A stretch of 20,696 bases of DNA from IMG/VR virus record IMGVR_UViG_3300035184_001114, positions 1 to 20,696 of that record. The stretch is one strand, 5' to 3'. Shown here piece by piece: positions 4,391 through 20,585 of the stretch (the stretch's first letter is position 1; every line of letters starts with the position of its first letter). A model generated the notes under the pieces. It searched no databases, was not told the DNA's origin, and saw only the letters and a program-made list of their open reading frames with translations. Position numbers and translations under genes: made by a program. This stretch comes from a virus.

Positions 4391-4392
4391 AA

Positions 4393-4968: not shown

Positions 4969-5528
4969 ATTTACCCGAACATCTAGGTGGACACAAAAAT
5001 AGAACACACTTAGACGAAGGATCATTAGATCATTGTATAGAAACTTTACAAGTTAAATCAATGTTAGACATTGGGTGTGGTCCCGGAGGGATGGTAGCAC
5101 TTGCTAGAAGTAAAGGTTTAAAAGCATACGGAATTGATGGAGACTTTGAAGTCAAGCGTTCTAAAAAAGTATCTAAGTTTGTAACAATACACGATTACGA
5201 AACAGGTCCAAGTTCATTGGATGTTGAGGTAGACTTAATATGGTCAGTAGAGTTTTTAGAACATGTTTGGGAAAAGTATCAAGACAACTATATGAAAGAC
5301 TTTCAACGTGGTAAGTTTGTTGTTTGTACATTTAGTGAAAAGAATGGACATCATCACGTTAACATAAAACCAGAATCATATTGGATAGACGTATTTAAAA
5401 ATTACGGATTTAGCCATGATGCTAACATGACAAGAATGATTAGAGAAGTTACTACATTAAATCTTACAGGAAAATTTGCACACAAACCTTTTGTTAAGAC
5501 TCACGGATTGTTTTTTGTTCGAGACTAG
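4965..5528 (+). CDS. SAM-dependent methyltransferase, Methyltransf_11/23-like
   Basis: 187 residues, unrelated in detail to the two preceding methyltransferases. It has classic motif I (LDIGCGPGG at 34-42), an acidic residue after strand 2 (AYGIDGD at 55-60), and DLIWSVEFLEHV at 90-101, typical of UbiE/COQ5-like folds that methylate small molecules or sugars. A HHHVN stretch at 129-133 follows strand 5. GAAGGAG lies before the ATG and the start overlaps the previous stop. It is the last gene of the rightward arm; its TAG stop shares CTAG (5525-5528) with the stop of the convergent TylF-type gene. Confidence 0.82.
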   Translation: MNLPEHLGGHKNRTHLDEGSLDHCIETLQVKSMLDIGCGPGGMVALARSKGLKAYGIDGDFEVKRSKKVSKFVTIHDYETGPSSLDVEVDLIWSVEFLEHVWEKYQDNYMKDFQRGKFVVCTFSEKNGHHHVNIKPESYWIDVFKNYGFSHDANMTRMIREVTTLNLTGKFAHKPFVKTHGLFFVRD

Positions 5529-6184: not shown

Positions 6185-7119
6185 TATACGTATTTTCTCA
6201 TATGTTCCCATGCTTCGCCTGATGTTAGTTCATCAAAGTTCCAATGACACATACTTAACTTTTGTAACCATAATTCTCTATCAAATACGTCTGGCATTTC
6301 AATATTTGCAATATCACTATTACAAACATCTTGTGCTTGGCAATCAATAGGATCATCTACAAATACAGGTATTCCTTCTATCGCACTTGCAACTGCCGGA
6401 GAACTATTATAAACTACTGTACACCAAGCATTGTTTAAGTCCATTTGTAAACTTCTATTAAGACGATCACTTATATGTACGTTATCAAGACCGTGTAGTT
6501 TATATGCTTTTTCTTTTGGATTTAAATACTTTCCTGCTCTACGATCACCCGGATGTCCTCTAATAATAATTGGACGATCACTAAACTGTCTAATACGAGT
6601 TATAACATCTCTTGCCCAGTCTTGGTTATCTAACCCCTTCATTGACCAACCGCCATTACGTTGCAAACAAATTAAAATATGATTACCTTGTGTTCTCCAT
6701 TGTCTTGTACGTATACCTAAGTCTTGACTAACTTTAATCCAACGCTTTGGATCAGGATTATCTGAAAAATAATTTCCTGTAGTAGGAAATACACCATCCA
6801 TACTATAACGCAAATAGCGTTTAGTATTTTGTTTATCTAAGTATAGAAATAAATTACTGTCTACAATAATAGTTTTACGATTACGCTTTGCTTGTTCATC
6901 TAATACTTGTTTGCGTAATTGTAAGTGCGGAGTATGTGGACTATCTTCATGTACATATCCTTGTAATACTGCAACATCACTAGGTGTGTAAAGACCGTCG
7001 TGTGCTATACCTACATCACCGTGTACTTGTACACCTTGTACGAAACGTTTAAGAACTTCTGGCTTTTCTGGATTCTTATTACTACCAGGTATACCTTTTA
7101 GGTAACTTACTACTTTCAT
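6184..7119 (-). CDS. GT-B-like glycosyltransferase, paralogue 2 of 5
   Basis: A 311-residue member of the window's five-member family. Landmarks: KRW at 125-127 (DRW equivalent), W141 followed by GNHILICLQ at 145-153, IIIRGHPGDRR at 184-194, DLNNAWCTVVYNSSPA at 227-242, GIPVFVD at 249-255 and CHWNFDELTSGEAWEH at 291-306. The last block is closest to the copies at 7116-8150 and 10472-11434. It is coupled at both ends (ATGA with the upstream gene, TAATG with the downstream gene). No signal peptide or membrane segment, so it acts in the cytoplasm. Substrate unknown. Confidence 0.78.
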   Translation of the reverse strand: MKVVSYLKGIPGSNKNPEKPEVLKRFVQGVQVHGDVGIAHDGLYTPSDVAVLQGYVHEDSPHTPHLQLRKQVLDEQAKRNRKTIIVDSNLFLYLDKQNTKRYLRYSMDGVFPTTGNYFSDNPDPKRWIKVSQDLGIRTRQWRTQGNHILICLQRNGGWSMKGLDNQDWARDVITRIRQFSDRPIIIRGHPGDRRAGKYLNPKEKAYKLHGLDNVHISDRLNRSLQMDLNNAWCTVVYNSSPAVASAIEGIPVFVDDPIDCQAQDVCNSDIANIEMPDVFDRELWLQKLSMCHWNFDELTSGEAWEHMRKYV

Positions 7120-8150
7120 TCTGTTGGCTCAGGCATACCACAAAGGTCAACAATTTTTGGCCATATATGTGTCCATGCTCTACCTTGTGCCATTTCTGCT
7201 CTGTCCCATTGACAATATGAAAGATCATTAAACCATTGTTGAATGTCTTCACTACTTGCAAGTGCAGGATTTTCAACTGCTTCTAACTGTTTGCTAGATA
7301 CATGATATGCAAAGTTTCCTTCATCTACTGCAATAGTCGGGATACCATATGCAATAGCATCAATAGCACTACCACTACTATAAGTAATACAAGTTTTTGC
7401 TTCTTTTAAATCTTGTTGTAATGTTCTTGCAATTCCGTCACTCCATATTACATTAGGATAGTTTTTAAATACTATTTTTCCTATATCGCCAAAAAAGTTT
7501 TCGTGTCCTTTTTCACTCATTGCAGGATGAAATCTAACTCTTATTTCACGTTTTGTAATACTTCTAAGTTCTTCTATTGTATCTAATAACCACTCACCAT
7601 GATCAGATCCACGTAGACTAGCATCGCCGGGCAACTGTGTAAGTATTAAAATATTACCGTCTTTGTTATTAATCCAGCCTTTCCATCTAATGTATAAGTC
7701 TCCAAATTTACTAAGTCTGTCACTGTTTGAATTTTCGTTATTAAACTCTCCAGCACCACTTAAAAATCCGTTAAGTCCAATTCTATACATATCGTGATTA
7801 CTCTGCTTTACAATACTTCTAGCAAGTAAAGGAGTTTCAAGTACAATATAATTTTTACATTTTTCAATTACGCTGTTTCTTACACGATGATGTAAATTTT
7901 CTCTTTCTTTTGCACTACCAAATATAATACCAACGTCTGCTGTTTCATCTGCAACTTCGCCGTAATCTAAACTAATATCTACACCAATTTTACGGATTTC
8001 TTTAATATACTTTTGCATATTGAATTCTGTTAGTTCTTCTTTTACTTTTACACTTTGCGAAAAGTGCGTAACAAGGCCACGATAGTATGCACGTAATACA
8101 TCTTTTTCGCCGTTGTTTTGTCCTGTTAACATGTAGACTTTAATTTTCAT
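7116..8150 (-). CDS. GT-B-like glycosyltransferase, paralogue 3 of 5
   Basis: The longest family member at 344 residues. Landmarks: SDRLSKF at 143-149, GNILILTQLPGD at 165-176, IRVRFHPA at 203-210, DLKEAKTCITYSSGSA at 247-262, GIPTIAVDEG at 269-278, and SYCQWDRAEMAQGRAWTH at 311-328. The N-terminal 60 residues carry an extra helical stretch (KYIKEIRKIGVDIS) absent from shorter copies. Its end overlaps the next gene by ATGA, and its start overlaps the upstream gene by 11 nt. Likely a cytoplasmic nucleotide-sugar-dependent transferase; donor and acceptor cannot be read from the sequence. Confidence 0.77.
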   Translation of the reverse strand: MKIKVYMLTGQNNGEKDVLRAYYRGLVTHFSQSVKVKEELTEFNMQKYIKEIRKIGVDISLDYGEVADETADVGIIFGSAKERENLHHRVRNSVIEKCKNYIVLETPLLARSIVKQSNHDMYRIGLNGFLSGAGEFNNENSNSDRLSKFGDLYIRWKGWINNKDGNILILTQLPGDASLRGSDHGEWLLDTIEELRSITKREIRVRFHPAMSEKGHENFFGDIGKIVFKNYPNVIWSDGIARTLQQDLKEAKTCITYSSGSAIDAIAYGIPTIAVDEGNFAYHVSSKQLEAVENPALASSEDIQQWFNDLSYCQWDRAEMAQGRAWTHIWPKIVDLCGMPEPTE

Positions 8151-8925
8151 TCAATGCTCTCCTTGCTGTTCCGTCGTATAGTTCTTGTATATGATACTGT
8201 CCGTATGCTAGATGACATGCCCATTTATGAACTAAATCGCTATCTGGATAGTATGGTGTTTCAATTTTAGTTATATCATTAGATGCTACAGGGGTACTAG
8301 CATTGGGTGCAAGTCCAAAAGCAGGTACTCCATATAATACTGCTTCAGTTGCCGCAATACTTTGTAGTGTAACAACAGCATGTGCATTATCTAATTCGTC
8401 ATATATAGTTTTAATAATACGTTCTGGACGACTTGCTTTTTCACGTACAACTATAGGACGATCAGTGTGTTCTTTTATTTTACTAATTGTTTGCTCACGC
8501 CATTCGTTCATATCAATATTATAGAACTTTGCAGGTTTCTCACTTGGCATAACAACAAGAATATTACGTCCGTCTTTTTTCCATTTTGGAATCTTGTATT
8601 GTAATTTTTCCCATCTATCACTAGGTCTATCAATTATAGTGTTGTGTTGTAGATCATTCTTTACTATCCTATGAAACCATTTCCAACCATTAGGGTTGAT
8701 AGGAGATTTGTAATTACCTAGGTATCCACTATCCATATAGTAAAAATCTCTTTTATCTTCCCAACACTTTTTCATAATTTTATGTTTTAGTATACCACGT
8801 AGCACTATCGGGTGTGGTGCAGTTGTATCGTAATCAAACGTTTTATCCGATGTAGGTTTAGCATTACAACCTTCTGCAAACATATTAACGTATTCGTCTG
8901 TGCCGTTTTTACTTAAAAATATCAT
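8140..8925 (-). CDS. GT-B-like glycosyltransferase, paralogue 4 of 5, divergent active-site region
   Basis: 261 residues from the ATG at 8923-8925, which gives MIFLSKNG like the starts of its paralogues. The reading frame continues 17 codons upstream but that would overlap the preceding gene further. Family landmarks: DRWEKL at 103-108, W115, GRNILVVMP at 119-127, DELDNAHAVVTLQSIAATEA at 176-195, GVPAFGL at 199-205 and AYGQY at 240-244. The HP of the RPHP block is missing: VVREKASRPER occupies 159-169. The SS of the next block is QS, and the final G..W.H is reduced to DGTARRA. These changes mark it as a separate branch, possibly with a different donor or lacking catalysis. Confidence 0.7.
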   Translation of the reverse strand: MIFLSKNGTDEYVNMFAEGCNAKPTSDKTFDYDTTAPHPIVLRGILKHKIMKKCWEDKRDFYYMDSGYLGNYKSPINPNGWKWFHRIVKNDLQHNTIIDRPSDRWEKLQYKIPKWKKDGRNILVVMPSEKPAKFYNIDMNEWREQTISKIKEHTDRPIVVREKASRPERIIKTIYDELDNAHAVVTLQSIAATEAVLYGVPAFGLAPNASTPVASNDITKIETPYYPDSDLVHKWACHLAYGQYHIQELYDGTARRALNEN

Positions 8926-9634
8926 TTTGATAATCTTTCCAATATACATGTTCTGACATACGTTGTTTAAATTCATCTAACAAGTCTGCATAACTGTTGT
9001 TCTTTTCTAAACGTTCTGTTGATAATAAACTTTCGTCAACTCTATTAGGATCATAAAAAAATATGTTTACACTATTACTGCTAATACTAAAAAATTTATA
9101 TCCTATACTTTCAAAATAGTTTCTGTATTTTTTATAACTTACACCGTGCCATATTGTTTTACTATAGTGATCACAATCTTCAATAAAAGGAAATGATCCT
9201 ACAGCATCGTAACTAAACTTTCTATTAATCTCTGCACAAATAATACTAGGACGAAAGTTTAAATTAATTAAGTTAGTCATAACTTCGTAATCGTAACTGT
9301 CAATATCTAAACTAAACACATCTACATCCTTGTCAAATACTTGTATAATTTCTTTACATTTATCAGGAGTAATACGTCCTCTGTGGAAAGTAACATTCTT
9401 ATGCAGATTGATTTGTCGTTTCATATCAAATGCTGTACACGTATACTTGTGATTTTGTACTAAATTTTGTGTGCAATTTATTGATATACCTGTTGGACTT
9501 TTTACATCACTGCCCCAGCCGATTTCTACACATCGTTTAGTTGGCTTCTTGAGTGCTTTTACTAAATGTAAAATTATACCATCTTCGTCTGATTGGCAAT
9601 GATGCCTTTCGCTGTAAGGTAATCTAAACTTCAT
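8909..9634 (-). CDS. FkbM-like SAM-dependent methyltransferase
   Basis: 241 residues from the ATG at 9632-9634, which overlaps the upstream stop as ATGA and follows GGAAG; an ATG three codons earlier is possible. Visible motifs are CQSDEDGII at 13-21 (the SQ.EDGI signature), CVEIGWG at 35-41 (SAM motif I), FDMKRQ at 69-74, DVFSLDIDSYDYEV at 105-118 and IICAEIN at 131-137. These are the blocks of FkbM-type O-methyltransferases often found in LPS and capsule clusters. It follows a GT-A-like transferase and precedes a GT-B-like one in the same operon, so a sugar substrate is likely though unproven. Confidence 0.78.
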   Translation of the reverse strand: MKFRLPYSERHHCQSDEDGIILHLVKALKKPTKRCVEIGWGSDVKSPTGISINCTQNLVQNHKYTCTAFDMKRQINLHKNVTFHRGRITPDKCKEIIQVFDKDVDVFSLDIDSYDYEVMTNLINLNFRPSIICAEINRKFSYDAVGSFPFIEDCDHYSKTIWHGVSYKKYRNYFESIGYKFFSISSNSVNIFFYDPNRVDESLLSTERLEKNNSYADLLDEFKQRMSEHVYWKDYQNDIFK

Positions 9635-10479
9635 TTCTTCCATGTCCTAAAATTATTTTCTAACTCTTTTAGTTTGCCGTGTTTTTTATTTTTCTTTTCT
9701 TGTTTGTCAAGATCTTTACGTTCTGCACCTGTAGTAATTTTTTCAATATACTGATCCATCTTAGGATCTTTCTTTCTCGCACCTTTAAAGTGTCTAAAAT
9801 ATTTGCCTAGTACAGTTTCTTTAAGTGGACTGTGTGCAGTACGTTGTGGGTGAAAGTCAACTACTTTTACTCCGTTGCTTATTGCATCAATTACACAATC
9901 AGCAAATACATATGCATCATTTGGTTTAGGAAATCTACTTCTATCATTAACACTACGTGATAGATATATGTCTTCGTATCTGTTTACAAACGTTTCAGCA
10001 TAGTTGTGTTTTGTGTTAAACCAATATATACCTGTATCAGCATGTTGTATATTAGTACCAGCATACTTGCCTTTATTCATTGTTACACCCATGTACGCCG
10101 CAATATTATCTATAGGACACTGTTGCTCTAACCACTCTTGTGTTATATCTCTGTAAGTAACACTGTCTGCATCTAAGTATATAATTGTGTCTGCATCAAT
10201 ATTTCTACAAGCATGTACCCAACTAAATGCTTTGTAAGCAAAGCCTCTACTAAAGTGTGTTCCAATATAATCTAAATATTCTTTTAAAGGTTCACCACAT
10301 GCTTCGTATACATCTAGTTCTTTAAGTTTAGGTGAACTTAAAGGTAGTTTCATATCTTCAGTGTAGCAATACAATGGGATATCACTAGGCCAAAACTGTA
10401 GATAGGTTTCTACCATTTTGTTTGCCATTGAGTCGTAGTAGTCTTTATTAAATGTTGTTATACAAGCAAATTTACGCAT
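9631..10479 (-). CDS. GT-A-like glycosyltransferase with DAD motif, paralogue of the 2970-3803 gene
   Basis: 282 residues starting MRKFACITTFNKDYYDS, parallel to MSRKFAVLTTFNQKG of the rightward-arm gene. TIIYLDAD at 98-105 gives the DxD; AYKAFSW at 81-87 matches AKKAFKW of the paralogue; HFKG at 230-233 matches HMKG. The C-terminal 50 residues are rich in Lys and Glu and probably helical. I chose the ATG at 10477-10479, with GGAG 6 nt upstream, over a TTG four codons earlier. It overlaps the upstream gene by 8 nt. Probably a metal-dependent retaining or inverting sugar transferase; which sugar is not evident. Confidence 0.8.
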   Translation of the reverse strand: MRKFACITTFNKDYYDSMANKMVETYLQFWPSDIPLYCYTEDMKLPLSSPKLKELDVYEACGEPLKEYLDYIGTHFSRGFAYKAFSWVHACRNIDADTIIYLDADSVTYRDITQEWLEQQCPIDNIAAYMGVTMNKGKYAGTNIQHADTGIYWFNTKHNYAETFVNRYEDIYLSRSVNDRSRFPKPNDAYVFADCVIDAISNGVKVVDFHPQRTAHSPLKETVLGKYFRHFKGARKKDPKMDQYIEKITTGAERKDLDKQEKKNKKHGKLKELENNFRTWKK

Positions 10480-11434
10480 TGTTATCTCCAAATACTAACG
10501 GTTTTAGGTGTGCCCAACTTTCGCCTTTTGCATGTTCTCTTTGTGTCCATTGAGTGTATGCAATGTCATTACACCATTGTGTTCTATCTATATCGTAGTT
10601 TAAATTTTCTATATTTTCTAAACCTTGTTGTCTTATAGGCCAAATCATACTACCATCTTCAAATGCAAAAGTTGGAACACCTTCACATATTGATTCTACT
10701 GAACTTAAACTATTATATGTAATTACGCAATGTGCATCGTTGAGGTCTCGATATAGGCCGTCTGCTGTACAGTTGTTATTCTCGTCTGGCAAGTAACTAT
10801 GCAATGAATCTACATTTTCACTTACACTTATATCTAATCCTGGATATCTTTTTTTAAGTCTAAGCGACATCTTTGTTCCTCGACTTAAATTTCTAGGATG
10901 AGGTCTTAAAAGTATTGGACGATCCGTATGCTTTTTAATCTCTATTATAATGTATTCTACCCAATCGTAAAAACTGTTGTAATCTTTGTACAAATTTAAA
11001 AGGCTACTATCACCTTCTTTTTGTCCCATAATAATGATTTTATCACCACGACTTTTCCAGTCTTTTAATTCTACACCACTTTCTTTTTGAAATTTATTCC
11101 AACGATCTGGTGGACTATTTTCATTACCAAAGTTTCCTTCAGTCCACTTATAACTTGTCCAACCTAGTCTAGTCCAACCTAAATGTCTTCTAAAACAAGA
11201 ACTTTCATTAACTAGAAATGGCTTACCACTATCACGTATGAAACGGTACATAGGTCCTTGCCAGCCATTGTCAATTTTTGGTTTTAATAAATTTGTTTGT
11301 ATGTAAGCATCAGCGTTGTGCGGTACATCAATGTTGTCAACTATCTGAAAACTATCACCGTGACGTACTAATCCTTTTGTTAGACAAACTTGTAATGATT
11401 TTACTGAGCCTTTAATTCCTACAAGGGAGACCAT
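10472..11434 (-). CDS. GT-B-like glycosyltransferase, paralogue 5 of 5
   Basis: 320 residues and one of the most complete copies. Landmarks: PPDRWNKF at 108-115, W126, GDKIIIMGQKEGD at 130-142, ILLRPHPR at 174-181, DLNDAHCVITYNSLSS at 230-245, EGVPTFAFEDG at 251-261, AYTQWTQREHAKGESWAHL at 292-310. The spacing between the RPHP and TYNS blocks is widened by an insertion around 205-225. It starts within the end of the upstream GT8-like gene (16-nt overlap). It is a good reference copy for aligning the other four. Confidence 0.78.
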   Translation of the reverse strand: MVSLVGIKGSVKSLQVCLTKGLVRHGDSFQIVDNIDVPHNADAYIQTNLLKPKIDNGWQGPMYRFIRDSGKPFLVNESSCFRRHLGWTRLGWTSYKWTEGNFGNENSPPDRWNKFQKESGVELKDWKSRGDKIIIMGQKEGDSSLLNLYKDYNSFYDWVEYIIIEIKKHTDRPILLRPHPRNLSRGTKMSLRLKKRYPGLDISVSENVDSLHSYLPDENNNCTADGLYRDLNDAHCVITYNSLSSVESICEGVPTFAFEDGSMIWPIRQQGLENIENLNYDIDRTQWCNDIAYTQWTQREHAKGESWAHLKPLVFGDNNA

Positions 11435-12114
11435 TCTGTACCTGTTTTGTTTGCAGTTTCAATCCATAAGTTAGCATAGTCTACATCTTGTTTTCCTTTA
11501 AACCAAGGTCCACCTTCTGTAAAATGAATTGCTTTTGGTTTACCATCTTTTGGTTCTTTATACCAACCTTCTAACCAATTCCATTCATGGCTAACTTCGC
11601 CAATCTCTTCATCTTTTAACCAACTAAAACGATGCATAAATTTTCCTGTTTCTTTGTTTACCATACTAGGTATGACTTGCTGATTGCTCGGATGTCCGCA
11701 GTTCCACAATACCATTGAACTCCAATTCTTGCGTGGATATAAATGCTGTGTTTTACCGTCCATCTTATCCGAACCATCTTTAGGAGTATAGTCATGATGA
11801 ACACACATAACAGCATACTTGTCATCTCTTTGTTGTAGTAGTTTATCTACATCATCTAACCAAAGAAAATCGCAATCACAAAATAATGCCCAACCTTTAT
11901 AACCTTGTAGATGTGGAATTAAAAACCTGCTAAATGTAAATTCAGTAGACCCTAATGCGTCTGTTTCTCTAGTGTAAACACCACTGCGTTTAAGTTCAGG
12001 TAATTTAAGATATTTTATATCAATAGGTTCTTCTGTAGTGTGACGTAAACTATGCTCACAAACATCACTAGCAATTTTTTCTCTGCTGTCATATCCAATG
12101 TATACTGTATTCAT
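11419..12114 (-). CDS. GT8-like (GT-A) glycosyltransferase
   Basis: 231 residues with VYIGYDSRE at 4-12, FTFSRFLIP at 59-67, LFCDCDFLW at 77-85 (DCD metal-binding motif), YPRKNWSSMVLWNCGH at 126-141 and HFTEGGPWF at 197-205, where the late His resembles the C-terminal metal ligand of GT8-type enzymes. This is a recognisable family in marine phage and bacterial polysaccharide loci; it is distinct from the two MxRKFA-type GT-A genes here. AGAGAGGA precedes the ATG, which lies 2 nt after the upstream stop. Second gene of the leftward operon, right after the nucleotidyltransferase. Confidence 0.82.
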   Translation of the reverse strand: MNTVYIGYDSREKIASDVCEHSLRHTTEEPIDIKYLKLPELKRSGVYTRETDALGSTEFTFSRFLIPHLQGYKGWALFCDCDFLWLDDVDKLLQQRDDKYAVMCVHHDYTPKDGSDKMDGKTQHLYPRKNWSSMVLWNCGHPSNQQVIPSMVNKETGKFMHRFSWLKDEEIGEVSHEWNWLEGWYKEPKDGKPKAIHFTEGGPWFKGKQDVDYANLWIETANKTGTEWSPL

Positions 12115-12116
12115 TA

Positions 12117-12899
12117 TTATTCCTCTCTGCGTTCAATATCTTCTTCAACGCATAATTCTCCGTATTGAACTTCTAGTATATGACACGGTTCTTGGAAAGG
12201 ATTGTACCCTTGGTGCCAAACTTCCTTGTCAATATCGTAACCTTTTGTTAAGTGTGGTAATGTAACATCACTTACATGACCGTTAAATTCTGTTTGAACT
12301 TTACAACAGCCTTTAAGTACATACCACATCTCAGCACGTTTAAAATGCTTCTGCATTGACAGTTTTTGTCCAGGTGCAATAACAAGTTCTTTAACTTTTA
12401 CAGTTTTGCCAATTGTATATAAATCTCTATACCAACCCCATGTACGTTCAACTTTAGGATGTTTCCATTCTTCTAATATCCAACTACTTGAATTCTTTTT
12501 ATTTTCGCCACCAATACCAAACTTAAACTCAACGGTAGGATCATCTCCATATGTAAGCATTTCAGGAATGTTTTTCCATGTTCGATCTCCGCCGTTAGCA
12601 AATATAATTTTATCACCTAATGCGTTTAATTGTTTTGTTTTGAAGATTGCTCCACATGCACTATCGTCACTGTCATCAAAGTCAATAACATAGTCTACCA
12701 TATAAAATCTTTTTGTAATTTCAACACGTTCTTCAAGTGGCATAAAAGGTCGCCCTTTCTTGCGTGTTAGCCAATCATCTGAGTTTAGTCCTACCCAAAG
12801 TTCGTCGCCTAACTTCTTTGCTTCTTCTAAGTAGGCTAAATGTCCACTGTGTATAGGATCAAATCCGCCTGTTACTAGTACTATTGTTTTCTGCTTCAT
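12117..12899 (-). CDS. Fusion of cytidylyltransferase-type nucleotidyltransferase and mannose-isomerase-type cupin
   Basis: 260 residues in two domains. Residues 1-145 form a nucleotidyltransferase of the GlyC/RfaE-C type: GGFDPIHSGH at 11-20 holds the HxGH catalytic motif, GLNSDDWL at 37-44, and NSSSWILEEW at 136-145 stands where the ISTT-like motif occurs. It would activate a sugar or polyol phosphate with CTP or ATP. Residues about 152-260 form a type II cupin close to the C-terminal mannose-6-phosphate isomerase/ManC domain: LSMQKHFKRAEMWYVLKG at 180-197 with His185 and Glu190 as likely metal ligands. First gene of the leftward operon; CATAAATA ends 5 nt before the ATG and no ribosome site is seen. 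It may supply the activated sugar for the cassette. Confidence 0.85.
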   Translation of the reverse strand: MKQKTIVLVTGGFDPIHSGHLAYLEEAKKLGDELWVGLNSDDWLTRKKGRPFMPLEERVEITKRFYMVDYVIDFDDSDDSACGAIFKTKQLNALGDKIIFANGGDRTWKNIPEMLTYGDDPTVEFKFGIGGENKKNSSSWILEEWKHPKVERTWGWYRDLYTIGKTVKVKELVIAPGQKLSMQKHFKRAEMWYVLKGCCKVQTEFNGHVSDVTLPHLTKGYDIDKEVWHQGYNPFQEPCHILEVQYGELCVEEDIERREE

Positions 12900-12904
12900 A
12901 GTAC

Positions 12905-12912
12905 TATTTATG
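12905..12912 (-). promoter_or_regulatory. Late-type promoter octamer 5 nt before the nucleotidyltransferase start
   Basis: Read leftward, CATAAATA is followed by GTACT and then ATG. The T4 late octamer occupies about -13 to -6, which would put transcription start on the A of the ATG and make the nine-gene leftward operon begin with a leaderless message. The same spacing recurs at four other genes in this window. Confidence 0.6.
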
Positions 12913-12949
12913 TGCGTATATTATTGTGTAATTTTTTTTGAATAGTCAT

Positions 12950-12974
12950 AAAAAAAGACTCCGAAGAGCCTTTT
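12950..12974 (-). terminator. Rho-independent terminator after uvsY
   Basis: Read leftward: AAAAGGCTC, loop TTCG, GAGTCTTTT, then further T residues. The stem is 9 bp with one G-U pair, a UUCG tetraloop and a U tract. It lies 23 nt beyond the uvsY stop and separates the gp32-uvsX-uvsY operon from the glycan operon. Confidence 0.88.
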
Positions 12975-12996
12975 AATATAAGCGTAAAATGATATA

Positions 12997-13452
12997 TTAT
13001 ACGGAAGCGTCTTCCATACCTGCTACACGTAGTTTAACAATATTAGTAATTTGCCATTGTTTCATGTCAATACCTTTCATTACTCCTAACCACTTGTTAC
13101 GTAGTAGAGCAAACTCGTTAATGATCTTTTCAAAGTCTACTACATCTGCTTCACCGTCAACGTATTTTTCAACGTCACGACTGCTTAATGCTCTTTGATA
13201 GTTTTCTAAATATTGTTTAAAAAACCTTGATCTAGTTCTACGTAGTTCTATATTTAGGTATTCTAGTACTGCCTCAATCTCTTGTAATTGTCCAAAACGT
13301 TCTTCAACAATTCCTGGTAGGTTTGCGGCCTGCTTTTCTAAATTGCCAAACAACTTTGTTTGCTTACGTGCATCTTCAAGTTCGCCTTCATACCATAGAA
13401 TAGCCGGAGGTATGTTTGCAATATCTTGAGTAATTCTAGAATACCAATTCAT
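12997..13452 (-). CDS. uvsY: UvsY-like recombination mediator
   Basis: 151 residues, close to T4 UvsY length (137). In T4, UvsY loads UvsX onto gp32-covered ssDNA. The protein is predicted mostly helical: EGELEDARKQTKLFG near 18-32, the LPGIVEERFGQLQEIEAVLEYL stretch in the middle in two adjacent helices, RRTRSRFFKQYLENYQRALS near 71-90 with basic residues suited to DNA binding, and a C-terminal WQITNIVKLRVAGMEDA segment (from about 132). This pattern matches UvsY of marine T4-like phages as I know it; similarity to T4 UvsY itself is weak. Position after uvsX in the gp32 operon supports the call. It follows the acidic-protein gene with TAAATG (stop and start adjacent) and ends at a terminator. 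Confidence 0.82.
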   Translation of the reverse strand: MNWYSRITQDIANIPPAILWYEGELEDARKQTKLFGNLEKQAANLPGIVEERFGQLQEIEAVLEYLNIELRRTRSRFFKQYLENYQRALSSRDVEKYVDGEADVVDFEKIINEFALLRNKWLGVMKGIDMKQWQITNIVKLRVAGMEDASV

Positions 13453-13719
13453 TTAGTTCCACTCATCATCATCACTGCTATACGGGTCTTCGTCCCAATT
13501 ATCACTATCTTCGTCCTTATACTTTTCACCTTGTACATCATTTACTGCTTCACCTAAGTATGGATCTTCAGCACCTACGGCATAAAGTGTATCTTCGTTG
13601 ACACCGTTATCTTGACACCACTTAACGTATTGCGTTGCTAATTGTTCTTTATTGGTCTTTGGGACATACTCCGAAAAGATATCCCAAAGATCTATTAGTT
13701 GGTCTTCACTCATTTCCAT
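13453..13719 (-). CDS. Small acidic protein between uvsX and uvsY
   Basis: 88 residues from the ATG at 13717-13719, with GAGGG 10 nt upstream inside the uvsX end; a GTG one codon earlier and an ATG two codons later are alternatives. The N-terminal 60 residues look like a small helical domain (DLWDIFSEYVPK, ATQYVKWCQDNG). The C-terminal 25 are strongly acidic (DEDSDNWDEDPYSSDDDEWN). Overlaps uvsX by 14 nt and abuts uvsY. I do not recognise a named T4 counterpart. The acidic tail and location suggest a protein partner of UvsX, UvsY or gp32, but that is inference. Confidence 0.75.
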   Translation of the reverse strand: MEMSEDQLIDLWDIFSEYVPKTNKEQLATQYVKWCQDNGVNEDTLYAVGAEDPYLGEAVNDVQGEKYKDEDSDNWDEDPYSSDDDEWN

Positions 13720-14824
13720 CACTTATTTTTCCCTCAACATTAACATTTTCTGATTCTACAACTTCATCTTCTACAGATGTGTCTGCTTCTTCGTACTTAT
13801 GTCTAATTTTAGAAAAGTCATTCATTACGAGTTGTAATTTTTCACCAGTCCAATCTTTACGGTAGTGTAAAATTTCCTCGTTTTTACTGTTAACGAACTT
13901 GAGTCTGTTACCTTGTTGTGTTAGAAGTCCTTGTTTTTCAAACAAGTCTACTAGTCCACTGTAAGGATCCATTCCTGTTTCATAAGGGATCTTTACTTGT
14001 ACACCTTCAAAAGGTTTTGCGTAACGTGTTTTCATTACCTTACATGCGGCTCTAATACCACGTACATCTGTTACCTTTTTGCCATCAGCATCTTCTTTTA
14101 GTTTTAGTTTTTTCATTGCTACAACAATTGAAGATGCATACACAAAGCCTTGTCCTCCACTGATTTTATCATCAGGATCAAACATATCTTGCGATGCATA
14201 CGTATGGTTAGTACATACCATACCTACATTATAACTACCAAACATGTTAACTGTGTTACGTACAAGGGCTGTCAGTGCCTTAGGTTTTCTACCCATATCA
14301 CCTTTCATATCACCCTTTTGGAACTGGTCAACATCTGTTGGTGTTAATAACATACCTAGTGAGTCAACAACAAACAATACTTTAGGTCTGTCTTCTGTGT
14401 CTACAGAATCATAATCGTTTCTATAGTCTTTCATAAACTCACTTATAGTTTTAGCAACATCATCAATCATTGATATTGACAGTCTAAGCAATTTGCCTTC
14501 GTCTGTAGCAACACCTAATGCTTGTAGCCACTTTTCATCAAGGGCATTCTCTGAGTCAATTAGAACTACAAAGATACCTTGATCTTGTGCTGACTTTACA
14601 ATGTTACCACTTGCAAAGTATGATTTACCTGCGCCGGATTCACCTGCAAACACCGTCACCTTACCTAGAGGAATCCCTTTATGGAAGTCCCCTGAGATAA
14701 GATGATTAAGTGCGTAATTGCCGGTTGAAACCCAGTCAGTCGGATCGTTAAAACCTGTACCTAATCCTGTAATAGACTTGGTTAGGTTCTTACGAAATTT
14801 ACTAACGTCGAATGGTTTCGCCAT
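13706..14824 (-). CDS. uvsX: UvsX recombinase (RecA/Rad51-like)
   Basis: 372 residues (T4 UvsX is about 390). It forms filaments on ssDNA and performs strand exchange in recombination-dependent replication and repair. Walker A GESGAGKS at 61-68; DSENALDEKWL at 90-100 with the conserved Glu; Walker B VLFVVD at 149-154; putative DNA-binding loop with DPDDKISGGQGF at 216-227, then ASSIVVAMKK. The C-terminus from 345 is acidic. AGGAG precedes the ATG; only 9 nt separate it from gp32, so both share the 15917-15945 promoter. Confidence 0.96.
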   Translation of the reverse strand: MAKPFDVSKFRKNLTKSITGLGTGFNDPTDWVSTGNYALNHLISGDFHKGIPLGKVTVFAGESGAGKSYFASGNIVKSAQDQGIFVVLIDSENALDEKWLQALGVATDEGKLLRLSISMIDDVAKTISEFMKDYRNDYDSVDTEDRPKVLFVVDSLGMLLTPTDVDQFQKGDMKGDMGRKPKALTALVRNTVNMFGSYNVGMVCTNHTYASQDMFDPDDKISGGQGFVYASSIVVAMKKLKLKEDADGKKVTDVRGIRAACKVMKTRYAKPFEGVQVKIPYETGMDPYSGLVDLFEKQGLLTQQGNRLKFVNSKNEEILHYRKDWTGEKLQLVMNDFSKIRHKYEEADTSVEDEVVESENVNVEGKISDGNE

Positions 14825-14833
14825 GATTACTCC

Positions 14834-15829
14834 TTACGATTGACGGTTGCGAATCATTGCTAAAATATCATTAGCACGTTCACTACTTGGTTTTTCTTCT
14901 GTTGCACTTGCAGTAGGTGCCACCGCTTCAGCAGTTGGTGCTGGAGCCGCAGATGCTACTGGTTCTGCTACTGGAGTAGGAGTCGCTGTCGGTGCCGCTA
15001 CAGGCGCTTTTGCCTTGCTCGGATCACCAGTTGGAGCACTCATGCCTGGAGCACGAAAGTACTGCCCAAAACGCTCTGGATCATATGCTTCACCATCAAC
15101 CGATGCTTCAAACATTTCCTGGATAACTTTAACTTCAACGTCAGATGGCTTTTTAGGTAAAAAGTCATTTAAGTTATGCAATCCATGTGCATCGATTGCT
15201 GTTTTTTCTTCTTCAGTAATAGCACGTTCTCTACGTGACCAAGCCGAAGTTGAATAATCAGCATATCCACCTTTAGATGTTTTCTTGATTCTAAAGTCCA
15301 CACCACGTACATAATCTGTAGGTAGTTCTTCCATCTCAGGATCCATTAATGCACCCTTAATGATTTGGAAAATTTGTGGTCCAATAATAAAACGTCTAAT
15401 TGGATTTTCTGGAGTAGTATCTTCACTGATTGGATTTTCTGCTACAAAGCCTTGGAAAATATAAGAACGTTTCTTCCAATATTTTCTACCTTGTTGCTCC
15501 AATGCAGGATCTTTGAACCAGCCACGTACTTCTTGTAGTACTGGACATGCTTCACCATACATTTCCATACATGGAACGTTAACTGTCACTGGACGTGAAT
15601 CAGTTTGTCCTTTAATACCTGCAAAAGGAAGTTTGATCATTAAGCGTTCTTTCCAAAAGAAAGTTGCTTCAGGATCAGAGTCAGGAAGAAAACGAAGTAC
15701 TACTTCACTACCTTCTGCCATATTCCAATGTGGGTAAATTGCGTTATCGCCGCCGCTTTGTTTATTGTTGCCACCTGTGCGTGACTCTTGTTCGCGTAAT
15801 TTTGCACGAATTTCTGCTAATGTTGCCAT
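14834..15829 (-). CDS. gp32: gp32-like single-stranded DNA-binding protein
   Basis: 331 residues. The N-terminal basic segment (IRAKLREQESR at 7-17) corresponds to the LAST/B domain for cooperative binding; an OB-fold core follows (YPHWNMAEGSEVVLRFLPD near 32-50, PIRRFIIGPQIFQIIK near 143-158). The zinc region has only C87 and C95 (PCMEM..EACPVLQ), where T4 has C-x9-C-x2-C plus His; the third Cys is Leu here. The C-terminus is unusual: an Ala/Pro/Thr-rich linker at about 270-312 and then the basic SERANDILAMIRNRQS, in place of the acidic tail by which T4 gp32 recruits partners. AGGAGG lies 8 nt before the ATG, downstream of a structured leader. Confidence 0.92.
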   Translation of the reverse strand: MATLAEIRAKLREQESRTGGNNKQSGGDNAIYPHWNMAEGSEVVLRFLPDSDPEATFFWKERLMIKLPFAGIKGQTDSRPVTVNVPCMEMYGEACPVLQEVRGWFKDPALEQQGRKYWKKRSYIFQGFVAENPISEDTTPENPIRRFIIGPQIFQIIKGALMDPEMEELPTDYVRGVDFRIKKTSKGGYADYSTSAWSRRERAITEEEKTAIDAHGLHNLNDFLPKKPSDVEVKVIQEMFEASVDGEAYDPERFGQYFRAPGMSAPTGDPSKAKAPVAAPTATPTPVAEPVASAAPAPTAEAVAPTASATEEKPSSERANDILAMIRNRQS

Positions 15830-15869
15830 AATTTAAGCCTCCTATTTGTTTTGCCTTTATGTGCCTGTT

Positions 15870-15913
15870 GTTCGACTATCGAACATTTCGATATGTTTCT
15901 CTAACAACATATC
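15870..15913 (-). promoter_or_regulatory. Inverted repeats in the gp32 leader (possible autoregulatory RNA or operator)
   Basis: Read leftward: a hairpin GATATGTT-8 nt-AACATATC (15890-15913), then GTTCGA-TAG-TCGAAC (15870-15884). Competing pairings exist: TCGAA-ATG-TTCGA (15879-15891), and TGTTGTT of the first loop region with AACAACA just past the second hairpin. T4 gp32 represses its own translation through a 5' pseudoknot, so an analogous element is plausible. The predicted start near 15910 trims the outermost pairs of hairpin 1; it could instead be a DNA operator. Confidence 0.55.
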
Positions 15914-15916
15914 TAT

Positions 15917-15945
15917 ATTATAGTTACCTTTTGTTATAAAGTCAA
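15917..15945 (-). promoter_or_regulatory. Sigma70-type promoter of the gp32-uvsX-uvsY operon
   Basis: Read leftward: -35 TTGACT (15940-15945), 17-nt spacer, -10 TATAAT (15917-15922). Near-consensus at both boxes and at spacing. Predicted start near 15910 gives a leader of about 80 nt. Host-type promoter structure fits early or middle expression of replication genes by the unmodified host polymerase. Confidence 0.8.
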
Positions 15946-15960
15946 CTAATAATTCTGATT

Positions 15961-18141
15961 TTATCTAATTAATTTAGCCAATTTGTCTTTAATGTAGGCT
16001 AAGTCTTCATTTGTTCGCTGTAATGCTTTAACTACACTAGGATGTTGGGATAAACCTTTAGCAATCTTTTCAATTACTTCAACAGCACCTGTATAGTTAC
16101 CACCTTTGAATCGTTTGTCATTAAGTACACCAAATGCCATTTTGATTTCTTTATCAGTATAGCCTTTGTTGTCTTTTTCTTCATCTTCTACAGTTTTACT
16201 CAAAGCCTGTTTAACTTCGTCAGCGGACATGTTTAGTTCTTTTGCTATTTCTTCGTCGCTGTGACCTTTGGCTTTAAGACTGTGCATATACTTAATGCTA
16301 CCTTCTTCTACATCTTGATCGTCTTCAACTTGTACCTCGTTACCTGTAAGTTTAGATACAAACTTTTCAACTAGATCCCCTACGGAATCACCAAAACGCT
16401 TACGAGCGGAAATAACCACACCAGTTTCACCTTTTGGAAACGCTCCAGTTTCTGTGTCATAGAATGAGCGAACAAACTCAATGATATCTTCGGTAGATGC
16501 TTTTTCATCTTTTGGCTCTTCGTCGTCGCCTGCTAATTTCATAGCACCGTCTTTATCAATAGTTACATCTGTAGTATCGTCATCATCTTCCATAGTCATA
16601 TCACCAAAGTCTAGATCATCTAGTGCCTCAGGATCGTTTTGTTTAAGATAACGATAGATAGCGGGTCTAGCACAGGACTCTGGGTCGCTTTCTGCTAAAC
16701 TTTTTAGTTCGTTCATTAGTCCTTCGTCTTCAATAATACCTTTGAGACTGTTTATTGCATTTGTTGCATCAGGACCTACTGGTAGTGATTTGCTAATCAT
16801 TTTGTTTAACATATCAATACGTTGTTTGTCTAAGGCTTCATCAATTACAGAGTCTGCCCATTCTTCAAATTCGTCTTCAGGAGTATTAGAGGTTTCAAAA
16901 CGCTCACGCTCCATATCTCTCTGCATGTCTGCTTGGTCGTGTAGTCTGTCATTGTAGTCTACAGCAATCCAATCAATCATTGCAGGAAGTTGATCTAATT
17001 CTTCTAAATCGTCATCATCAACTTCTGTACCGTCTGTGTATTTCATACCAGAATCTAATACAAAGAGTAAATCGCTAGGATCTTGCATATCGTATTCGAT
17101 AGTGTCTGTGTCAATTTGTTTGCCCTTAAAGATAATGTCGTCATTACTTTCGTCTAACACATCATCTAAACTAACCGTAGTTTCAGCAACACGCTTTTGA
17201 TGAATACTATGTAGTAACGGGAACATGTCTTTTAGTTCTTCATTAAATTGCGGAATTGTAAATGCATTGGTAAGATCATTTACAATGTCTTCTCCCAATT
17301 CTTCGCCTGTACTTTCAACAGGAATAAAGTTTTCTTTTGATTGTGCGTAATATCCTTGACCTTGTAATTTTTTAAGATGTGATCTCATATAATCAAGTTC
17401 TACATTACTTCCTTCAATAATATCATTTGAGGTTGTATTCATAAAATCTTTTTTACCTACAAATCTTTTAAATGCAGTAAGTTTAGCAATGTTTTCAGAA
17501 GTTGCAATAATATGTTTGCCAAAGTCGTCATGAGGGACGCCACTGTTAGCAACATGTCTAGCCATTGCTCTAGCACCTGCTAGATGAGCAAAAGGATATT
17601 TAAAACGTTCTCCTGATTCATTTTCAATAAACAAAGAACTAATATGTCTAGTTCTAGCACCTGACTGTTCTGGTGTAATTTCTTTTTTATGTCTAATAAT
17701 GAGTTTTGTTTTGTCTAGTTCCTCATAACTAGATTTAGTTGTTCCGTACATTGTTGACTCCTGAACTTGTTTGTTTGCCAAGTATTGATAATCTCGTTTA
17801 TCTAAATTTGATTTTGCTATATCTCTAGTATCAAAACCCATCATGTGCTTTTTAGCAAAGAAACGCATTTCTTTTAAAAAGTTATACCATTCGTTTTCAA
17901 TAGGCTCTGGTAAATTTTCTAACATGTTTTGACTGTAATATACTTTTAATGATTCTGCTTCACTAATGCTAATACTAACGGCGCCTTGGTTTTCACCATT
18001 TACAACCCAATCAAAATCATAAAATCGTGCTGTTCCTTCATCTGATGTAGGTGCGCCATTTTCGTCTCCCATTACAATCTTTGGAAAACGACTACGAATC
18101 TTTTCAAATAACTGTGTTGCTATACTGTCTAATCCTGTCAT
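15961..18141 (-). CDS. Large acidic protein of unknown function (726 aa), late-type promoter
   Basis: A 726-residue soluble protein without recognised catalytic motifs. Residues 1-120 contain a folded-looking region (RFYDFDWVVNGENQGAVSI near 39-57, LKEMRFFAKKHMMGFD near 89-104). The middle (about 320-600) is very rich in Asp and Glu with DDDD-type clusters. Residues about 619-648 (HSLKAKGHSDEEIAKELN, then MSADEVKQAL) read as a helix-turn-helix of the resolvase/sigma region 4 style. The C-terminal 60 residues are helical and basic. Its CATAAATA-N5-ATG start marks it as a late gene, and it directly follows gp17, so a virion or head-morphogenesis role is plausible, but no homologue is recognised with certainty. 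Confidence 0.8.
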   Translation of the reverse strand: MTGLDSIATQLFEKIRSRFPKIVMGDENGAPTSDEGTARFYDFDWVVNGENQGAVSISISEAESLKVYYSQNMLENLPEPIENEWYNFLKEMRFFAKKHMMGFDTRDIAKSNLDKRDYQYLANKQVQESTMYGTTKSSYEELDKTKLIIRHKKEITPEQSGARTRHISSLFIENESGERFKYPFAHLAGARAMARHVANSGVPHDDFGKHIIATSENIAKLTAFKRFVGKKDFMNTTSNDIIEGSNVELDYMRSHLKKLQGQGYYAQSKENFIPVESTGEELGEDIVNDLTNAFTIPQFNEELKDMFPLLHSIHQKRVAETTVSLDDVLDESNDDIIFKGKQIDTDTIEYDMQDPSDLLFVLDSGMKYTDGTEVDDDDLEELDQLPAMIDWIAVDYNDRLHDQADMQRDMERERFETSNTPEDEFEEWADSVIDEALDKQRIDMLNKMISKSLPVGPDATNAINSLKGIIEDEGLMNELKSLAESDPESCARPAIYRYLKQNDPEALDDLDFGDMTMEDDDDTTDVTIDKDGAMKLAGDDEEPKDEKASTEDIIEFVRSFYDTETGAFPKGETGVVISARKRFGDSVGDLVEKFVSKLTGNEVQVEDDQDVEEGSIKYMHSLKAKGHSDEEIAKELNMSADEVKQALSKTVEDEEKDNKGYTDKEIKMAFGVLNDKRFKGGNYTGAVEVIEKIAKGLSQHPSVVKALQRTNEDLAYIKDKLAKLIR

Positions 18142-18146
18142 ACTGT

Positions 18147-18154
18147 TATTTATG
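18147..18154 (-). promoter_or_regulatory. Late-type promoter octamer before the 726-aa protein gene
   Basis: Read leftward CATAAATA, then ACAGT, then ATG. It lies in the 16-nt gap after the terminase stop. No Shine-Dalgarno sequence is visible, so a transcript from here would be leaderless. Confidence 0.6.
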
Positions 18155-18157
18155 CTT

Positions 18158-19750
18158 CTAGAATGAAATAAACACAGGCATTGGCATTACACTAGATTCG
18201 TGATCTGCATCACGCATCTTCTCATATATAGCAGGATCCCATTCTGCGAGTATCTTTTGCATACGAACATTAAGCATAGTACTCATTACTAGATCGTCAT
18301 GTTCGCCTGTTTTGGCGCCAAATGTAGTACCGTGTGCAACAAATGCTTTTAGTTCTGATATTAGTGGTTTGGATTTGATTTTAAGTTGACCGCTTTCAAG
18401 TAGTTGCTTAAATTTAGCACATGCTGATATCTTTGTTTTATGCGTAGTATTAAATCCTTTTCTAAACTTACGTACATGCCCTTTACGTGCAGGCTCACTT
18501 AAAAACATTCCATATATGTTTTCTTCGCCATAGTCAGAAATTGACACTAATACTGCTTCTCCTATAGAGTTGTTTTCTACACTGTAGTATACTTGTGGAA
18601 GTTTTTGCCCTCGACGTTGCCCTTCTTCCATGATAGTTTTGTTAATATCTGCAAGTATTCTTACTTGTGCTTGTACCGGTGTAGTATTATGTTGCCATTC
18701 TGCTACTTGTTTAAAACTTGGAAGTTCAAACACTTGTATTGCCGCATAGTCACCACCTGTACCTAAACTAGGATCTAAACTTACAACATATGTAAAGTTA
18801 GGATTAATATCTTCATACCAACGTGTTTGTCCAAACTTTCTTAAAGGTTCTGCACCTTCAAGTTCTGCAAGTTTAACACTATTAATTAATGTTTCGTCAA
18901 AGATTAAAAATTCACATTCGTGTTCACGTCTAAAACGTTCTTCGCCAATACGTGATTTTTCTTCTGCGGCCCAATCGTCGTCACGGTCAGGATGTTCACT
19001 CCAGTGTGCAGAAAAAGCAAAGAAGCCGTTTATTCCAACTTCAGTATCATTACCGTGTTCGTCAAAACGCTTACATGCTTCTGTCCAAATAAGTGCAAAC
19101 TGATCTTCATCACTGTTAGGCGTTGAAGTAATAATTGCTTTACCACCTGTTGCTAGTGTTGGAGAAATAGCAGTCCAGAACTCTTTGGCAATAGTAGGAT
19201 TAACAAACGCAAACTCATCACAATATAATAATGATATGGACATACCACGTCCAGTGTTGTCTGTTGTGGTTTGTGAAACTATTCGCGAGCCGTTATCAAA
19301 TTCCATTGATCCTTTGTTGTATGAAGTTACACCGCATCTTATATGATCTGGACAGTCTTCGTAAGCATAGCGAACACGATGCATAATTTCTTGAGCACCT
19401 GCATATTTGTGAGCGGCAATAAGAACAGTTACATCTGGATTAAACATTGCATACCATAACAAGTAACCAGCCGCTGTCGTTGACTTACCTGTTTGTCGAG
19501 GTAGCATATTGATATTAAATCTATAACTGTGATATGAGTCTACAAGTCTTTCTTGAAACTCAAAAGGTGCAAACTTCAACTTACCTTTTGTAGGATGTTG
19601 AATATAAAAGAAATTATCCATAAAGAATTTAGCGCCTGTGTCTGGGTGAGCACATGCTCTTAGTTCTTGAACTTCTTTTTCTGTATATCTAGTCCTTGTG
19701 TGTGCTTTTTTAACAAGTACACCGTCAAGGCTTTTTGCGTTTTGTGCCAT
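18158..19750 (-). CDS. gp17: Terminase large subunit, DNA-packaging ATPase/nuclease (gp17)
   Basis: 530 residues (T4 gp17 is 610). ATPase domain: FQERLVDSYHSYRFNINMLP region then Walker A PRQTGKST at 84-91; Walker B LLYCDE at 174-179; coupling motif ITSTPNSDE near 207-215. RNase-H-like nuclease domain: VVSLDPSLGTGGDYA at 322-336 (Asp326), SVENN at 390-394 (Glu392) and EHDDLVMST at 483-491, giving the acidic triad that cuts concatemers. It pumps DNA into the prohead through the portal, with gp16. It starts 5 nt after an AGTAAATA octamer whose TAA is also the stop of the upstream 142-aa gene. Confidence 0.96.
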   Translation of the reverse strand: MAQNAKSLDGVLVKKAHTRTRYTEKEVQELRACAHPDTGAKFFMDNFFYIQHPTKGKLKFAPFEFQERLVDSYHSYRFNINMLPRQTGKSTTAAGYLLWYAMFNPDVTVLIAAHKYAGAQEIMHRVRYAYEDCPDHIRCGVTSYNKGSMEFDNGSRIVSQTTTDNTGRGMSISLLYCDEFAFVNPTIAKEFWTAISPTLATGGKAIITSTPNSDEDQFALIWTEACKRFDEHGNDTEVGINGFFAFSAHWSEHPDRDDDWAAEEKSRIGEERFRREHECEFLIFDETLINSVKLAELEGAEPLRKFGQTRWYEDINPNFTYVVSLDPSLGTGGDYAAIQVFELPSFKQVAEWQHNTTPVQAQVRILADINKTIMEEGQRRGQKLPQVYYSVENNSIGEAVLVSISDYGEENIYGMFLSEPARKGHVRKFRKGFNTTHKTKISACAKFKQLLESGQLKIKSKPLISELKAFVAHGTTFGAKTGEHDDLVMSTMLNVRMQKILAEWDPAIYEKMRDADHESSVMPMPVFISF

Positions 19751-19755
19751 ACTAG

Positions 19756-19763
19756 TATTTACT
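19756..19763 (-). promoter_or_regulatory. Late-type promoter octamer before gp17
   Basis: Read leftward AGTAAATA, then CTAGT, then ATG. The TAA within the octamer is the stop codon of the preceding gene, so promoter and coding end are superimposed. Confidence 0.55.
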
Positions 19764-20187
19764 TTAATATTGGAGTGGTTTTACGTTTATTGATGCTAGT
19801 GTCTATTACAGTACGTAATAAATCAAAATGTGTACTTAAATTATCAAATAAGTCAATGTTTAAGTATTCACTAGCCATGCTATAACTACTTTTTCCTATG
19901 TTACTATAGTAAGTTATGTCTAAACCTTTATTATGTCCGTATGAAGGGAATACGCCTGTTACAAACAAACATGTATCACCTAATTGCTTTGCATTCTGTG
20001 TATATGGTCGTTGTAATTTTAAATATGATTCAGCAAATGTTTGTTGTGGTAAAAAGTCTGGCTTTTCAATATGGCTCGCCAAAAGGAAAACAATATACGA
20101 CTCTAGTTCAACTGGAAGTTCGTAACCGTATGTTTCTTTCGCCTCAGATACAATATCGTAGAAGGCGTTAGTGTACTCCGTCTTCAT
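19759..20187 (-). CDS. 142-aa protein upstream of gp17 (gp16 position; function unassigned)
   Basis: 142 residues. The N-terminal half is helical (FYDIVSEAKETYGYELPVE, YIVFLLASHIEKPDF), the middle has KQLGDTCLFVTGVFPSYG near 67-84, then ITYYSNIGKSSYSMASEYL near 90-108, and a helical C-terminus. The 'LGD..LFV.G.FP...YY...G..SY..A' pattern reminds me of a widespread bacterial family of unknown function rather than of T4 gp16. By position it would be the small terminase subunit, but the sequence does not show a gp16-type coiled-coil or HTH, so I leave it unassigned. Begins 5 nt after AATAAATA and has no ribosome site. Confidence 0.75.
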   Translation of the reverse strand: MKTEYTNAFYDIVSEAKETYGYELPVELESYIVFLLASHIEKPDFLPQQTFAESYLKLQRPYTQNAKQLGDTCLFVTGVFPSYGHNKGLDITYYSNIGKSSYSMASEYLNIDLFDNLSTHFDLLRTVIDTSINKRKTTPILK

Positions 20188-20192
20188 ACAAA

Positions 20193-20200
20193 TATTTATT
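20193..20200 (-). promoter_or_regulatory. Late-type promoter octamer before the 142-aa gene
   Basis: Read leftward AATAAATA, then TTTGT, then ATG. It fills most of the 18-nt gap after the preceding stop. Confidence 0.55.
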
Positions 20201-20205
20201 GTATT

Positions 20206-20544
20206 TTATGGTTTTAACTCGTTATAATAACCGGTATCAAACCGTAAATCAAATAGGGTACGTCTATCTTGTTGTATCAATATAGGTACAGGACTTCCAA
20301 ACTTTCCGTACTTAGGTTCACTCCATAACCATTCGTATTCGTAACTTACATTTAACTGTTTACAAAGTTTTTTTAGTCGTCTGCGATTAATATCTTTAAA
20401 TGTATAAACAATGGCTTGGTTATCACCTAAGTGTTCCCATTCTCCAGCCCATTGTATTATTTTGATTTCGTTCTTTTTCCATGCCGCTAAACTCCACGGA
20501 CATACAGGTTTAATTTTTTGGAAATATTCTGCCCAGTCTGTCAT
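20206..20544 (-). CDS. Hypothetical protein, 112 aa
   Basis: 112 residues, no recognised family. It is aromatic-rich: seven Trp, with WAEYFQKIKPVCPWSLAAWKK at the N-terminus (residues 4-24, broken here by Pro residues), IKIIQWAGEWEHLGD at 27-41, and YEYEWLWSEPKYG at 68-80. The core is basic (DINRRRLKKLCKQL). A small alpha/beta fold is possible. It starts 5 nt after AGTAAATA and just behind the 20559-20585 terminator, so it begins a new late transcript leading into the terminase genes. Confidence 0.72.
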   Translation of the reverse strand: MTDWAEYFQKIKPVCPWSLAAWKKNEIKIIQWAGEWEHLGDNQAIVYTFKDINRRRLKKLCKQLNVSYEYEWLWSEPKYGKFGSPVPILIQQDRRTLFDLRFDTGYYNELKP

Positions 20545-20549
20545 ATGAA

Positions 20550-20557
20550 TATTTACT
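20550..20557 (-). promoter_or_regulatory. Late-type promoter octamer before the 112-aa gene
   Basis: Read leftward AGTAAATA, then TTCAT, then ATG. It starts one base after the U tract of the preceding terminator, forming a compact terminator-promoter-start unit. Confidence 0.6.
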
Positions 20558-20558
20558 G

Positions 20559-20585
20559 AAAAAAATAGGCTCCGGAGAGCCTATT
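20559..20585 (-). terminator. Rho-independent terminator of the right-edge gene
   Basis: Read leftward: AATAGGCTC, loop TCCG, GAGCCTATT, then TTTTT. A perfect 9-bp stem followed by a U tract, 20 nt after the stop of the right-edge gene. Its GGCTC/GAGCC core closely resembles the uvsY terminator. Confidence 0.88.

Follow-up and report, generated by a model that had tools for sequence, protein, structure and literature searches.

Gene content and N5 sites of the window

The window analysed here is the entire IMG/VR record IMGVR_UViG_3300035184_001114, 20,696 bases in length, and it comes from uncultured giant phages related to T4; relatives were collected by their terminase large subunit (TerL). 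In tblastn the window terminase shares 48-55% identity with the terminases of two jumbo phages, PA5oct and Phosso, and 53% with that of Atu_ph07 over 80% of its length. We define an N5 site as TAAATA followed by five spacer bases and ATG (TAAATA-N5-ATG). The window has five such matches, all on the minus strand, against an expectation of 0.67, and five or more were found in none of 100 dinucleotide shuffles. The N5 sites, the genes behind them, an adjoining terminator and two contrast genes are as follows.

20564-20585, minus strand: intrinsic terminator (AATAGGCTCTCCGGAGCCTATT and a T run), ending against the promoter of module 1, whose TAAATA extends to 20555
20542-20555, minus strand: N5 module 1, with TAAATA at 20550-20555, spacer TTCAT and ATG at 20542-20544 of the 112-aa ORF
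20206-20544, minus strand: 112-aa ORF, family unassigned, predicted to be leaderless (ORF list and profile searches)
20185-20198, minus strand: N5 module 2, with TAAATA at 20193-20198, spacer TTTGT and the ATG (20187) of the 142-aa ORF
19759-20187, minus strand: 142-aa ORF, family unassigned (ORF list and profile search)
19748-19761, minus strand: N5 module 3, with TAAATA at 19756-19761, spacer CTAGT and the ATG (19750) of the terminase large subunit
18158-19750, minus strand: terminase large subunit (gp17), a predicted leaderless late gene (PHROG 36964, E 1.5e-124; tblastn)
18139-18152, minus strand: N5 module 4, with TAAATA at 18147-18152, spacer ACAGT and the ATG (18141) of the 726-aa ORF
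15961-18141, minus strand: 726-aa virion structural protein-like gene (phrog_13484)
14834-15829, minus strand: gp32 single-strand binding protein (phrog_1192), contrast gene with a strong Shine-Dalgarno (SD) sequence and without an N5 module
13706-14824, minus strand: uvsX recombinase (phrog_97), contrast gene with an SD and without an N5 module
12897-12910, minus strand: N5 module 5, with TAAATA at 12905-12910, spacer GTACT and the ATG (12899) of the nucleotidyltransferase gene
12117-12899, minus strand: protein with a nucleotidyltransferase and a mannose-6-P isomerase C-terminal domain (PF01467, PF01050), predicted to be leaderless

The original prediction had placed promoter and start codon pairs on the leftward strand at 12899, 18141, 19750, 20187 and 20544, and all five were confirmed with the 5-nt spacing. 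It had described the promoter as an octamer; the hexamer TAAATA is present at the five sites and conserved in relatives, but the preceding [AC][AG] is not conserved across relatives. All five ATGs are the first ATG, GTG or TTG after the preceding in-frame stop, and therefore an earlier start of these ORFs is impossible. All five spacers end in T, and the TAA stop of the 142-aa ORF (19759-19761) is also the first three bases of the TAAATA of module 3. The nucleotidyltransferase gene heads the sugar cassette, a big block at 752-12899 whose genes, on both strands, encode putative glycosyltransferases and methyltransferases, with the N5 gene at the head of one side; most of its members that were tested had no Pfam family match.

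It had also been claimed that the five genes have no SD while other genes in the window do. The SD duplex energies of the five N5 genes lie between -0.4 and +1.6 kcal/mol, whereas those of gp32, uvsX and the GT8 gene are -10.2, -8.7 and -6.5 kcal/mol, respectively, and those of the divergent pair in the cassette are -6.6 and -5.9 kcal/mol. This part of the claim holds, but several genes inside the cassette, starting at 8976, 9643 and 10491 and each overlapping the preceding ORF, also have no SD, and therefore absence of an SD is not by itself unique to the five N5 genes.

The 5-nt spacing among related phages

Eighty relatives were collected by terminase; the close clade consists of 37 relatives, to which longer contigs were added. 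Spacing was counted as unique TAAATA-to-ATG distances for ORFs of at least 60 aa. In the close clade 73 unique sites were at distance 5 and at most three at every other distance from 0 to 19. Over whole longer contigs the distance-5 counts were 17 in G006, nine each in G002 and G010, eight in G005 and seven in G009. Genes were also collapsed into families to lessen pseudoreplication. Counted in this way, distance 5 accounted for 24 families in the close clade with the longer contigs, each of the remaining distances between 0 and 40 having six or fewer, the sister clade had 36 at distance 5, 13 at distance 4 and at most 12 elsewhere, and the pelagiphages (T4-like phages of Pelagibacter) had 18 at distance 5 and at most eight elsewhere. 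For HTVC008M and the majority of these contigs, no hexamer before starts was more position-enriched than TAAATA at -11 to -6. In the sister contig G012 distance 7 rivals distance 5 in position enrichment; spacings of 4, 6 and 7 also occur in the sister clade. A scan of the distance from TAAATA to start codons had been named in the original prediction as a check, and run on the relatives it revealed a strict preference for 5 nt. A variant hexamer was seen as well: in part of the close clade TAAGTA stands in place of TAAATA at the TerL promoter, with the same 5-nt spacing, in L014, L015, L018, L020, L032, L034 and L037, and TAAGTA was found 25 times at distance 5 and at most nine times at other distances.

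The orthologs of the window genes behave accordingly at each of the five sites. Spacing 5 was found in 4 of 4 orthologs of the 112-aa ORF, 16 of 16 of the 142-aa ORF, 21 of 22 of the nucleotidyltransferase, 62 of 77 of the 726-aa ORF (the remainder being at 4, 6 or 7) and 55 of 77 of TerL, where eight more are at 4 and further ones have TAAGTA at 5. The spacing is kept in these orthologs while the spacer and the upstream sequence vary. None of the 67 gp32 orthologs and none of the 57 uvsX orthologs is an N5 gene, and both groups have a strong SD. SD energies of N5 genes in relatives resemble those of shuffled sequence, and at most of their N5 sites the ORF has no possible start before the ATG. 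In contigs of the close clade, 57-88% of the genes that follow a more distant TAAATA have an SD.

Among phages outside these clades, T4, Syn9, PA5oct, Atu_ph07 and KVP40 showed no surplus of distance-5 sites when TAAATA-to-start distances were scanned, and the idea of N5 as a universal rule of T4-like phages was rejected on their account; the modal TAAATA-to-ATG distance in T4 is about 28. XacN1 had a partial excess, nine sites at distance 5 and five at distance 6, some of them with an SD. Little or no excess over a reversed-pattern control was found in P-SSM2, Campylobacter F356, ORM_20, S-SRM01 and Melnitz, and the Pelagibacter phage Mosig had 11 matches versus three in that control. In HTVC008M, also a Pelagibacter phage, 12 of the 14 matches to the pattern fall precisely on CDS starts of the deposited annotation, and its N5 genes include those for head closure, tail tube cap, baseplate wedge, tape measure and tail completion. 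As for hosts, sister-type TerL was found among bacterial genome contigs only in one Methylophilaceae MAG and one Euryarchaeota MAG, which is too weak for naming a host; the 89.5 kb contig L434, binned with the Methylophilaceae MAG, carries a sister-type TerL (65%) and gives a weak hint of a host.

Since TAAATA and ATG are both AT-rich, it could be argued that the pattern arises by chance in AT-rich sequence or from wrongly chosen start codons. This is hardly credible, because permuted hexamers of equal composition gave no comparable peak in the spacing scan of relatives unless they overlapped TAAATA itself, and because the shuffles, the deposited starts of HTVC008M and the first-possible ATGs of the window all speak against it; the clade-wide spacing had already refuted it.

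Start site, initiator and probable reader of the proposed late promoter

The octamer of T4 late promoters spans -13 to -6 (PMC1524935), which matches the numbering used in the original prediction, and thus five spacer bases place +1 on the A of the ATG. The base before the ATG at N5 sites is a pyrimidine in 73 of 73 cases in the close clade, 59 of 59 in the sister clade and 23 of 24 in the pelagiphages. The initiator was also tested without the constraint of an ATG, using those TAAATA sites of the close clade that precede an SD-led start by 14-49 nt. At these leadered promoters a pyrimidine-purine step falls at nucleotides 5 and 6 after TAAATA in 26 of 34 cases, compared to 2-15 at other offsets, and with family weighting the values are 0.82 and 0.05-0.54, respectively. 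Because leadered promoters keep this step, the most likely explanation from these sequences is that the start site is a property of the promoter and that in the window clade the ATG of N5 genes has been placed onto it. The window itself has two candidates of the leadered type.

2932-2937, plus strand: leadered late-promoter candidate TAAATA, with initiator spacing TACGT/A, upstream of the SD-led gene at 2970-3803
2952-2957, minus strand: divergent leadered late-promoter candidate TAAATA, with ACATT/A, upstream of the SD-led gene at 1981-2910

This divergent TAAATA pair (2932-2957) separates the two arms of the sugar cassette; both candidates keep the initiator at the 5-nt spacing but have leaders and SDs, and the arrangement at 2932-2937 is also present in the relative G002.

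Leadered TAAATA sites of the sister clade have no initiator at 5 and 6 (0.30, family-weighted). Since this step is absent and some of the sites use a spacing of 4 or 7, the choice of start site may be looser in the sister clade, and the geometry is less certain there. A minority of sister-clade sites (for example in L053, L066, L070 and L083) have spacing 7 with mostly A at nucleotide 5 after TAAATA; judged by this, RNA may start 3 nt before the AUG at such sites. These observations bear on the alternative that the polymerase uses several starts around the AUG and makes leaders of 1-3 nt, the tight spacing arising because a compact genome leaves no space for a leader. The sister spacings of 4, 6 and 7, the A at nucleotide 5 of the spacing-7 sites and the stop codon inside the TAAATA of module 3 would agree with it. 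Compaction, however, gives no preference for 5 over 4, 6 or 7, and in the close clade 73 of the 77 unique sites at distances 4-7 are at 5, and the pyrimidine at -1 is invariant. We therefore regard short leaders of this kind as unlikely.

A hairpin followed by a T run was found in the 20 nt preceding TAAATA at 21 of 75 N5 sites in the close clade and 19 of 66 in the sister clade, versus 7 of 1600 positions chosen at random. An intrinsic terminator thus directly precedes about 28% of N5 sites, and the abutting arrangement of module 1 also occurs in relatives. Because the terminator abuts the promoter, read-through RNA would be cut off, and the transcript from the late promoter should be the main message there. 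This is relevant to a different reading of the hexamer, in which TAAATA at -11 to -6 is not a promoter but a non-SD element that binds ribosomes on a longer mRNA. TAAATA does sit at the position of an SD, and the SD is missing at exactly these genes. In the window clade, however, TAAATA also lies 14-49 nt before genes with a strong SD and has the same initiator step at 5 and 6 there, it is identical to the core of the T4 late promoter, terminators finish just a few nt short of it, so that there would often be little upstream RNA to bear such an element, and contigs of the sister clade encode gp55. A ribosome-binding role for TAAATA is therefore very improbable.

A gp55 homolog is present on G015, G020, G021 and G022, all of them contigs of the sister type with N5 sites of their own. 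On contigs of the window clade, all of which are fragments (the largest being 116 kb), none was detected, and gp45 (phrog_223) had no match in these phage records, those on the window-clade side being fragments, nor in the controls, which makes the gp45 result uninformative. The TAAATA core stands upstream of late and virion genes as expected of a T4-type late promoter, and the N5 genes of G006 and G020 with family matches encode tail tube, head-tail adaptor and minor coat proteins and 2OG-Fe(II) oxygenases. The idea that leaderless late genes commonly go together with a phage-encoded bS21 was considered and rejected: this protein is absent from the window and the sister contigs and present in phages without N5. 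Genes for bS21 were found in HTVC008M (91228-91431) and in three phages without N5, PA5oct (170985-171143), Atu_ph07 (489120-489257) and Phosso (389762-389905).

Based on these results we propose that N5 sites are very probably gp55-type late promoters with +1 at the A of the AUG, from which leaderless late mRNAs would be made alongside the SD-led messages of other genes. The late promoter would be reduced to TAAATA-N4-Y-A, in which the initiating A doubles as the A of the AUG of the gene; RNA polymerase with the phage late sigma of the gp55 family would start RNA at the AUG, and the message would be translated through recognition of its 5'-terminal AUG and not through an SD. The same promoter, placed farther upstream and followed by an SD-bearing leader, would serve other genes in the same phages, and replication genes (gp32, uvsX) would use SD-led starts that are not N5. 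At the level of sequence, the motif, its exact spacing, the conserved initiator of the window clade, the absence of an SD, conservation in many families and the abutting terminators are established. We infer the rest, namely, the start of transcription at the N5 AUG, the reading of the promoter by gp55 in the window clade and the translation of the leaderless messages by ribosomes. The leaderless late mRNAs of the original prediction are supported by the pyrimidine-A step at the predicted -1 and +1, the equal initiator spacing in leadered promoters of the window clade, the loss of the SD and the abutting terminators. Its further suggestion, that promoter and start codon are selected as one unit, agrees with the fixed 5-nt spacing, but no separate coupling mechanism is necessary: an ATG placed on the fixed +1 of the promoter would give the fixed spacing, and the appearance of one unit, without any extra coupling.

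Known systems and implications

Late transcription of T4 is a textbook system with SD-led messages, and the cI mRNA of lambda made from PRM is leaderless. The T4 late promoter (TATAAATA; gp55/gp33/gp45) is like N5 in having a TAAATA core, no -35 element and late genes behind it; the predicted +1 is six nt past the last A of the core in both, and sister-type genomes have a gp55 homolog. Unlike in the N5 phages, the T4 promoter drives SD-bearing leaders, the modal distance to the ATG being about 28 nt, and has no excess at distance 5. The late promoters of T4-like cyanophages and KVP40 (NATAAATA; PMC2984593) have the same core motif before late genes, but in Syn9 and KVP40 no ORF starts at distance 5 and the sites are mostly 20-40 nt upstream. 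In phiKZ the late promoter of the nvRNAP has TATG with the G as transcription start site (PMC5312081). It resembles N5 in being a late promoter of a giant phage with TATG in the core at the start site, but its reader is a multisubunit RNA polymerase of the phage and not gp55, and the reported start is G and not A. In mycobacterial leaderless genes RNA starts at the AUG and there is no SD (PMC4633059). The leaderless mRNAs of these examples belong to host genes or isolated phage genes, whereas N5 covers many genes of one temporal class of a phage under one type of promoter. In the literature searched, subscription papers being outside its coverage, we found no report that joins leaderless mRNA and gp55 late promoters; thus, T4-type late promoters and leaderless mRNAs are each known, and their systematic fusion was not found there.

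A late promoter merged with the start codon would couple the transcription switch of the phage to another way of initiating translation. It is possible, though we offer this tentatively, that in the jumbo clade of the window, the sister clade and the SAR11 phages the late sigma leads to leaderless virion mRNAs while replication stays SD-led, and that the phage could favour its own messages late in infection by shifting ribosomes toward initiation at a 5' AUG. HTVC008M and Mosig are cultured carriers that allow direct testing. The pattern TAAATA-N4-Y-ATG would serve as a simple rule for settling start codons and recognising late genes in phages that are uncultured.
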